Below the pieces are notes generated by a model. That model saw nothing but the letters and a program-made list of their open reading frames with translations. It did no database searches and was not told the DNA's origin. From Thioalkalivibrio sp. K90mix (GTDB lineage Bacteria; Pseudomonadota; Gammaproteobacteria; Ectothiorhodospirales; Ectothiorhodospiraceae), in the NCBI RefSeq assembly GCF_000025545.1, contig NC_013889.1, forward strand, positions 2,101,501 to 2,165,500: DNA of 64,000 nucleotides. The letters are read 5' to 3'. This document shows, one piece after another, positions 56,786-58,891 of this stretch (positions are counted from its first letter, which is position 1; each line of letters opens with the position of its first letter). The position numbers were made by a program, and so were the translations under genes.

Positions 56786-56800
56786 CCGCGCGAAAAAGCT

Positions 56801-56898
56801 GTCATTGCGAGGAACCGCAGGCGACGTGGCAACCGCGGCTTCCTGAACCCGTAGTGTCCGCGGCGGGTGCGTTGCTCAGCCCGCCTGCGACGAGCCCC
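56801..56898. repeat. Intergenic repeat, copy A
   Basis: Begins GTCATTGCGAGGAACCGC and continues with AGGCGACGTGGCAACCGCGG and CTTCCTGAACCCG. The same motif order returns at 58756 (copy B), with about 35 of the first 45 bases alike. It lies between bamD and glnB and carries no gene. Confidence 0.7.
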
Positions 56899-56907
56899 TG
56901 GGGTTAG

Positions 56908-57351
<444 letters not shown>

Positions 57352-57362
57352 TCATTGCGTAC

Positions 57363-57375
57363 ATGGACGCCCCCG
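57363..57375 (+). repeat. IS1111 subterminal inverted repeat, end downstream of the transposase
   Basis: ATGGACGCCCCCG, exact inverse of 58736-58748. Confidence 0.88.
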
Positions 57376-57633
57376 GTTTGCCAAGCGTTTGAGTAGATGG
57401 TTTCGGGGCGACGATTGCTCCCGTACATTCGGACTGCGTGTGCGGCTTTCATTCGCCACGGTCCCGGATGGATTCCGCGGGTGGAGGGTCCCAGCGAGGT
57501 CGCGCACTCGAGGTGCTTCGCAATGATCGGACTGGCCCCCACCGGGATCGCTCCCGTTGCCATCATGCTCAATCGCTTGCGCAATCGAGGGTTGGGTACG
57601 TAATAACGCGTTCGCTTCTCCGTTTTTTCAGGC
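57376..57633 (-). ncRNA. Candidate bridge/seek RNA region of the IS1111 element
   Basis: This 258-base noncoding stretch between the transposase stop and the end repeat is where IS1111 elements encode their target-choosing RNA. On the minus strand it contains TCATTGCGA (complement of 57518-57526), identical over nine bases to the rebuilt insertion site GTCATTGCG/AGGAG across the junction. CGTACAT also occurs both at the left element edge (57358-57364) and inside (57422-57428). Inner dyads exist around 57535-57600 (for example GCGCAATCG near CGATCGC-like segments). RNA limits and folding are not determined. Confidence 0.5.
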
Positions 57634-58665
57634 TTACGCGGCGGCGCCGCGTAAGCCGGGGTCAAACGTCCGGTCATGGGCCATCAGGGCCCAGACCGTG
57701 CGGGCATTCTTGTTGGCCAGGGCCACGGTGGCCACGTTGGAACCGCGCCGCTGGCGTAACCCTTCGAGCCAAGGGTCGCCGCCCTCGCCGCGGCGCTGAT
57801 CCGCCAACAGGGCGGACCGCGCCCCGTGGATCAGCAGCATGCGCAGGTAGCGGTCGCCGCGCTTGCTGATCCCCAGCAGGTTCGACTGGCCGCCACTGGA
57901 GTGCTGCTTGGGCACCAGCCCCATCCAGGCGGCCAGCTGGCGACCGTTCTTGAAGTGCCGGGCATTGCCGATCGCGGCGACCAAGGCGGTCGCGCTGATC
58001 GATCCGATCCCCGGGATCTCGGCCAGGCGCCGGCTGACTGCATGACTTCGATGCCAGGCCTGGATCTGGCGCTCCTGTTCCTTCACGGCCTGGTCCAGTC
58101 GCCGCAACTCGTCGAGCCGGTCGGCCAGCAGCGTGCGGAACAGATCCGGCAAGCCGTTCTCCGCGTCCTCCAGGATCCCCGGGAGCTCGCGGAACAGGGT
58201 CGTCATCCCCTGGGGCACCACGATCCCGAACTCAGCCAGCAAGCCGCGCAACTGGTTGGCCTGCGCGGTGCGCGCCTTGATCTGGCCCTCGCGCACCCGG
58301 TGCAAAGCCAGTACCGCCTGCTGGTCGGGCGTCTTGATCGGCACGAAACGCATGTTCGGGCGGGTCACCGCCTCACAGATCGCCTCGGCGTCCGCCCGGT
58401 CGTTCTTGTTCGTCTTCACGTAGGGCTTCACGAACTGCGGCGCCATCAGCCGCACCTCGTGCCCCAACGCCTGCAACTCACGGGCCCAGTAATGGGCACT
58501 CCCGCAGGCCTCCATGCCCACCCGGCACGCCGGCAGCTGCGCCAGGAACGCAAGCAGCTTCTTCCGCGTGATCGCCTTCGAAAACACCTTCCGGCCCTGC
58601 GCATCCACGCCGTGGACCTGAAACACGTTCTTCGCGAGATCAATGCCGAGTGTTGTAACCTGCAT
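57634..58665 (-). CDS. IS110-family transposase (IS1111 group)
   Basis: An apparently intact 343-residue DEDD recombinase. N-terminal RuvC-like domain: TLGIDLAKNVFQVHG (first Asp), VGMEACGSAHYWAREL (Glu), KTNKNDRADAEAICEA (two Asp). C-terminal Tnp20 domain: LAEIPGIGSISATALVAAIG, AAWMGLVPKQHSSGGQSN with the proposed catalytic Ser, and SKRGDRYLRMLLIHGARSAL. GGAGG stands seven bases before the ATG. Reading frame has no stop or frameshift, so the element may still be active. Confidence 0.95.
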   Translation of the reverse strand: MQVTTLGIDLAKNVFQVHGVDAQGRKVFSKAITRKKLLAFLAQLPACRVGMEACGSAHYWARELQALGHEVRLMAPQFVKPYVKTNKNDRADAEAICEAVTRPNMRFVPIKTPDQQAVLALHRVREGQIKARTAQANQLRGLLAEFGIVVPQGMTTLFRELPGILEDAENGLPDLFRTLLADRLDELRRLDQAVKEQERQIQAWHRSHAVSRRLAEIPGIGSISATALVAAIGNARHFKNGRQLAAWMGLVPKQHSSGGQSNLLGISKRGDRYLRMLLIHGARSALLADQRRGEGGDPWLEGLRQRRGSNVATVALANKNARTVWALMAHDRTFDPGLRGAAA

Positions 58666-58735
58666 CTGGACGCCTCCGTCGCTTCGAGTGAGAGTTCACA
58701 CCCCCACTCTGGCACATCGCGATGCCGTAATAGGG

Positions 58736-58748
58736 CGGGGGCGTCCAT
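58736..58748 (-). repeat. IS1111 subterminal inverted repeat, end upstream of the transposase
   Basis: CGGGGGCGTCCAT on the plus strand, inverse of 57363-57375. Confidence 0.88.
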
Positions 58749-58755
58749 TCCATTG

Positions 58756-58862
58756 AGGAGCCGAAGGCGACGTGGCAATCGGTTTCCTGAACCCGCGTCG
58801 TTTGCATCCAGCGCTGCGTTTGCCCGGCCCGATTGCTTCGTTGCTACGCTCCTCGCAATGAC
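58756..58862. repeat. Intergenic palindromic repeat, copy B (split by the IS)
   Basis: Starts AGGAGCCGAAGGCGACGTGG, continues CAATCGGTTTCCTGAACCCG, and ends with GATTGCTTCGTTGCTACGC and TCCTCGCAATGAC (58831-58862). The end is the inverse of GTCATTGCGAGGAGC, the motif cut by the IS at the other side (57351-57359). So the unit has terminal inverted repeats of about 30 bases and the IS entered one of them. The space to the nadE stop holds nothing else. Confidence 0.7.
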
Positions 58863-58891
58863 CGGGTCCGACGCCGCGATCTGCGGAGCAC

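Follow-up and report, generated by a model that had tools for sequence, protein, structure and literature searches.

RNA guides of the kind considered here were described in 2024, and the element analysed below is a further seekRNA / bridge RNA member. For IS1111 elements, PMC11187229 reports experiments that establish the order of the two target guides in the RNA (T, then B) and the need for the noncoding end. The accessible part of that paper describes abundant RNAs of 70-100 nt, in which only target matches are assigned, and promoters formed at the junction of the circular element; in the IS110 group, according to the same source, the RNA lies upstream of the gene and the guide order is reversed. 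Donor nucleotides of IS1111 members were predicted by inspection in PMC11208160 (six elements, including ISPa11). We found no systematic donor covariation for IS1111 in the accessible parts of PMC11187229 and PMC11208160 or in open-licence literature listings.

We analysed an insertion sequence in a 64,000-nt stretch of DNA from Thioalkalivibrio sp. K90mix (the window). As judged from its sequence, it has in common with the IS1111 seekRNA elements ISEc11, ISPa11, ISKpn4 and ISPst6, as PMC11187229 presents them, a DEDD transposase (covering both Pfam domains), subterminal inverted repeats (11-13 bp in the group), terminal extensions of 7 and 3 nt, a long 3' noncoding end, the order T before B and a junction promoter. 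ISPa11 likewise targets a REP (PMC11187229). Compared by description with the seekRNAs of that paper, the donor guides of the present elements covary and lie partly outside the 70-100 nt. With the bridge RNA of the IS110 family (IS621; PMC11208160, as far as accessible) our element shares a two-loop RNA with guides for both sides of the target (5/7 for the B guide of the window) and both sides of the donor. Unlike the IS110 group proper (IS621 type), which has an upstream RNA and no long subterminal repeat, it carries its RNA downstream of the gene and has subterminal repeats of 13 bp.

The insertion sequence and its target

The element is intact, and the genome holds two copies that are 100% identical to each other. 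We assigned its ends from the 13-bp inverted repeats, which pair with zero mismatch, together with the 7/3 extension rule given in PMC11187229 (Table 1). An earlier note, made from the letters alone, had placed the transposase on the minus strand with a long noncoding end after its stop, and had recognized in this the IS1111 layout. Both points stand, as 274 nt separate the transposase stop from the element end and 90 nt precede the start. The Pfam domains of the transposase are DEDD_Tnp_IS110 and Transposase_20, and a sequence search leads to the solved transposases of ISCro4 (E 1.2e-7) and IS621 (E 2.4e-7). Residues D9, E52, D89, D92 and G258 are invariant in 9/9 aligned transposase sequences; the four acidic ones are, in our own reading of the alignment, the likely DEDD residues. 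The S-G motif of the window transposase is GLVPKQHSSG, in agreement with the IS1111 family motif GL-P----S(t)G, and its S257 is not invariant among the nine.

Table 1. Window positions of the element, its flanks and the parts of the predicted guide RNA
Feature	Positions	Strand	Remarks
IS1111-type insertion sequence, complete, 1396 bp	57360..58755	-	Subterminal inverted repeats and 7/3 nt extensions
DEDD transposase gene, 343 aa	57634..58665	-	Pfam PF01548 and PF02371
Left terminal extension CAATGGA (donor, right side of circle junction)	58749..58755	-	
Left subterminal inverted repeat ATGGACGCCCCCG	58736..58748	-	
Right subterminal inverted repeat	57363..57375	-	
Right terminal extension GTA	57360..57362	-	
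-35 box TTGGCA	57379..57384	-	Sequence only; putative circle-junction promoter with TA|CAAT, spacing 17
Left half of interrupted target repeat, AGGAGCCGAAGGCGACGTGGCAA on +	58756..58778		
Right half of interrupted target (transposase strand CGCAATGACG)	57350..57359		
Predicted guide RNA (seekRNA / bridge RNA), both loops	57410..57560	-	Covariance model R1, 95.7 bits, E 6.3e-24 (window is a training sequence)
Target-loop stem, 5' arm	57537..57544	-	Helix 1; 7/8 pairs formed in window
Target guide T, TCATTGCGA	57518..57526	-	Complementary to top strand at target -1..+8
Hairpin GCAC-CTCGA-GTGC between T and B guides	57504..57516	-	Helix 2 (3 pairs), 100% of cells paired
Target guide B, GACCTCGC	57494..57501	-	Top-strand sense; matches CCT|CGC, mismatched at target -4 and -5
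Target-loop stem, 3' arm	57479..57486	-	Consensus fold
Donor guide T', AATCCAT	57468..57474	-	Complementary to left-end positions 3-9 (6/7)
Donor stem GGAC, pairs with GTCC at 57431-57434	57461..57464	-	Helix 3, 100% of cells paired
Donor-side hairpin GTGGC...GCCGC	57442..57459	-	Helix 4, 90% of cells paired, 4/5 pairs changed on both sides
Donor guide B', ATGTAC (right end ATGTA and first left-end base C)	57423..57428	-	6/6; second heptamer of the earlier note

Joined across the element, the flanks read GTCATTGCG|AGGAG on the + strand and equal one uninterrupted repeat (L005) over at least 30 nt. Both genome copies are inserted at CCT|CGCAATGACG and interrupt a palindromic repeat, which in the window copy is CCTTCGGCTCCT|CGCAATGAC. 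The uninterrupted target 13-mer CTCCTCGCAATGA occurs exactly at 6 other sites of the genome and with one mismatch at 9, as against 1 for the reversed control.

The palindromic repeat is REP-like, with several units at 56800-56850, 57350-57359 and 58756-58870 (CATTGCGAGGA...GGCAA). Three pairs of inverted units of this region are found again elsewhere in the genome.

Target guides in the window and its relatives

We collected the best 80 of 552 relatives found in genomes, which with the window make 81 elements. Canonical ends and usable flanks were obtained for 52 of them, and the automatic end search lost the other 29 (15 without a repeat found, 14 with a noncanonical best repeat or too short a flank). 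The repeat start was shifted by hand in L047, L057 and L056, and likewise tried in L062, which was still dropped; the right end of L056 is irregular and its target doubtful. Twelve plasmid loci were hand-picked among the 60 matches listed, three of which (L104, L111 and L127) lack recognisable ends. The first 10 plasmid relatives contributed 8 elements with ends, giving a test set of 60 (52 + 8); L127 and L128 were examined later and are outside this set.

In these 60 elements a segment about 165 nt before the element end, T, is complementary to the right side of the target, and a second segment about 25 nt after it and about 140 nt before the end, B, matches the left side and the junction. 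In the window the two lie at -167 and -140. We scored each element's T against the complement of target +1..+8 (at least 7/8) and its B against target -5..+2 (at least 6/7), on its own target and on swapped ones, that is, those of another element with at least 6 of the 13 positions different (n=3258). With search windows and thresholds that were fixed after earlier guide-target comparisons had been inspected, T passed on 47/60 own targets versus 42/3258 swapped, B on 51/60 versus 95/3258, and both together on 44/60 versus 0/3258. Of the 44 elements passing on both counts, 38 have T and B spaced 24-26 nt apart. This agreement between guides and targets across relatives is decisive.

The window itself is one of the 16 elements that do not reach both thresholds: its B guide (CCTCGC), mismatched at -4 and -5, fits 5/7 in the fixed register. 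T fits at fewer than 6 of 8 positions in six elements (L054, L056, L061, L082, L089 and L095); for L082 a fit is obtained at a shifted position. The guide rule had already been noted when the eight plasmid elements were retrieved; 7 of them pass both thresholds, and L103 fails T at 6/8. L041, which comes from an unrelated bacterium, interrupts a repeat like that in the window and shares with the window copy the target core and both target guides, T and B. In line with the earlier note, both genome copies, the ends in another species of the genus (G032) and L041 share the target core.

We aligned 40 elements, leaving out of the 60 those judged divergent (12) and near-duplicates (8). A structure-free information scan of the 165 columns of this alignment gave, at the top of its ranking, 14 column pairs made up only of guide columns; RNA column 70 equals target -2 in 40/40 sequences. 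We built a quick tree from 59 transposases, without the frame-damaged L110; on it, parsimony requires 9-30 changes at each of the 13 target positions. Thus, shared descent alone does not explain the guide match.

One target class, GTA(A/T)G|CG, recurs in several genera (L022, L027, L029, L032, L033, L036, L037, L042, L050, L051 and L103). B fits 7/7 in all 11 of these elements and T at least 7/8 in 9.

Two elements of Candidatus Nitrotoga, L052 and L089, have nearly the same RNA and different flanks, that of L089 being poorly matched, which may reflect either loose targeting or a later change of the flank. In L128, on a plasmid of Aeromonas salmonicida, the donor guide fits the ends and target guide B misfits the flank; this copy may have been moved by a later rearrangement.

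Predicted fold and donor guides

A covariance model built from the 40 aligned elements, the window being one of the 40 training sequences, places the RNA in the noncoding end of the element, and in the consensus structure the target loop has TCATTGCGA on its 5' side. The candidate bridge/seek RNA proposed in the earlier note for this end is supported by guide-target and guide-donor covariation in the relatives. The consensus fold has four helices with 20 pairs, in which 95.8% of 800 cells are paired, as compared with 22-37% when slid by 1-3 columns, and 15/20 pairs have changes on both sides. Since the fold was written on the row of L022 after an RNAalifold fold had been inspected, the comparison with slid columns leans towards it, the covariation measures less so. 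In helix 1 95.6% of cells are paired over the 40 sequences, with 7/8 pairs changed on both sides. When RNAalifold is run on the 40-element alignment, all four helices come back, two of them shortened by one pair, together with three further short ones. The loop between helix 1 and helix 2 carries T on one side and B on the other, and the donor guides T' and B' stand before and after helix 3, respectively. Taken alone, the window RNA has no folding advantage over shuffled sequences (z 0.04), and its minimum-energy structure is not that of the consensus. A scan of the window against Rfam at the gathering score returned only a tRNA, with no family for the guide RNA.

By eye we had noticed that the RNA near -70 varies in step with the right extension and left-end base 1. 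For a count, the RNAs were anchored by a pattern that is independent of the ends and was chosen after this inspection; 58/60 elements could be anchored. The 3-nt right extension and left base 1 are copied in the RNA, all four letters, in 57 of the 58 anchored elements, whereas 20000 label shuffles average 15.7 and never exceed 30. The agreement includes the extensions ATA (9), CTA (4), GCA (3) and ACA (3), and its sole exception is L056 with the irregular right end. The RNA near -110 tracks positions 6 and 7 of the left extension, with a standard pair at position 6 in 59/60 and, at position 7, a Watson-Crick pair in 46/60 and G-U in 10 more. Independent donor-guide pairs on well-supported branches of the tree number 1-2, too few for a test. 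Judged on these sequences, donor covariation is a quantified extension of a known kind.

The rule common to the family is ATGTA followed by the first base of the left end. It accounts for a second heptamer, CGTACAT, by which the earlier note had linked the element edge to the inner region. The inner copy is there (ATGTACG on the transposase strand, its first six letters being B'), while the last two letters (CG) of the edge copy turned out to be flank bases. The earlier note mentioned neither the second target guide nor the donor-guide role of this heptamer. The base at target +1 is that at left-end +1 in 58/60 elements. One shared base is seen in the present elements, versus a core of reportedly two in IS621.

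It is possible, albeit unlikely, that the RNA reads the target alone, that the protein recognises the donor ends via the subterminal inverted repeats, and that the copies ATGTAC and AATCCAT are a DNA-level or ancestral feature. Indeed, an 82-nt ISEc11 seekRNA sufficed in a reporter assay, as reported in PMC11187229. The present RNAs span some 100 nt between the start of T and the end of B' (window, 104 nt), and if the geometry of ISEc11 is the same, 82 nt cannot hold both guides; for this reason the donor covariation sits uneasily with the published RNA. However, the donor triplet and base follow the ends through all the extension types listed above, parsimony on the quick tree needs 11 changes in the right extension and nine in left base 1, and T' and B' flank a covarying helix. 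For IS1111 at large, we consider it reasonably probable that the full RNA is a two-loop bridge RNA with a donor guide selected to track the extensions and a one-base core (mostly C/T), and that the short seekRNA of bench experiments is a form, processed or minimal, from which half of the donor guide is missing. The difference between a seekRNA (target only) and a bridge RNA (target and donor) gives a simple test for IS1111.

A proposed cycle, and related copies in sister genomes

The ends, target, guide positions, guide-target and guide-donor covariation and consensus fold are established here from sequence, and with them the noncoding stretch is very probably the guide-RNA end of an IS1111-type insertion sequence. 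We infer transcription, enzyme binding and strand exchange as follows. Excision would join the element ends into a circle, whose junction would build the promoter TTGGCA-17-TA|CAAT; this would read the transposase gene and then the noncoding end. By sequence, the -10 box of the circle junction is TACAAT in 28/60 elements and TATAAT in 21/60, and left-end +2 is A in 58/60, a preference that fits a -10 box formed at the junction. The RNA would then fold into two loops. One of them, the target loop, would use TCATTGCGA to pair with the top strand to the right of the insertion point, and CCTCGC to pair with the bottom strand across the junction; the other, the donor loop, would pair with the left-end extension through AATCCAT, and through ATGTAC with the right end and the single base (C) common to target and donor. 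Finally, the DEDD recombinase would place the element, in a single orientation, in the palindromic repeat at CCT|CGCAATGAC.

That the guides are an old relic, reflecting a former target of an element that no longer moves, appears quite improbable. Only two full copies were found in the genome, as such a relic might have, but the 343-aa frame is open with its acidic residues invariant, the ends are complete, the two copies identical and the boxes of the junction promoter present.

The 9-nt identity of TCATTGCGA to the rebuilt target was confirmed on the minus strand at 57518-57526, and the chance first put on it, about 1-2 percent, agrees with our shuffles of the noncoding end, 1.8% of 5000 of which contain a junction-spanning 9-nt match on either strand; taken alone, the match is weak. 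That the 274-nt noncoding end and the target share a functionless 9-mer by chance, perhaps as a fragment of the nearby repeat, is nevertheless extremely improbable, provided that the ends are correctly assigned, as most relatives, though their targets differ, have the target complement at the same position, with both guides fitting 44/60 own and no swapped targets at the thresholds above.

In the guide-RNA reading, the address code would be readable as target -5..+2 and +1..+8, the donor right extension with one base, and the left extension, so that landing sites may be predictable from sequence for many such insertion sequences.

With the covariance model, the RNA is detected in 6 of the 47 family genomes, that of the window included. 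Read by eye, T fits 9/9 and B 6/7 in G043; B fits 7/7 in both G014 and G011, with T at 6/8 and two G-U in the former and partial in the latter; and one copy in G046 has T at 8/9 with a G-U, its left end not being found. In G032 two element ends lie on different contigs with flanks GGCCT| and |CGCAATGACGG, and their CCT| and |CGCAATGACG are those of both genome copies; a contig of this genome (G032:C51) gave a weak match to the model. A regular-expression scan for ends at eight sister-genome loci found none, because the repeats differ in these genomes.

In G043 (C1, about 1015850-1018647) two copies of an IS1111 relative, L008 and L015, stand head to tail, 1403 bp apart and separated by exactly 8 nt, CGTCTTGG, which their own T guide reads. 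Perhaps a second CTTGG|CG site served here for an alternative excision or insertion. A further match to the RNA model, L137 (G046:C5 202958-203086), keeps the donor half and the right end, and the 5' part of its target loop is replaced by other sequence; it is apparently a truncated copy. A fuller relative is present at 82703 on the same contig.
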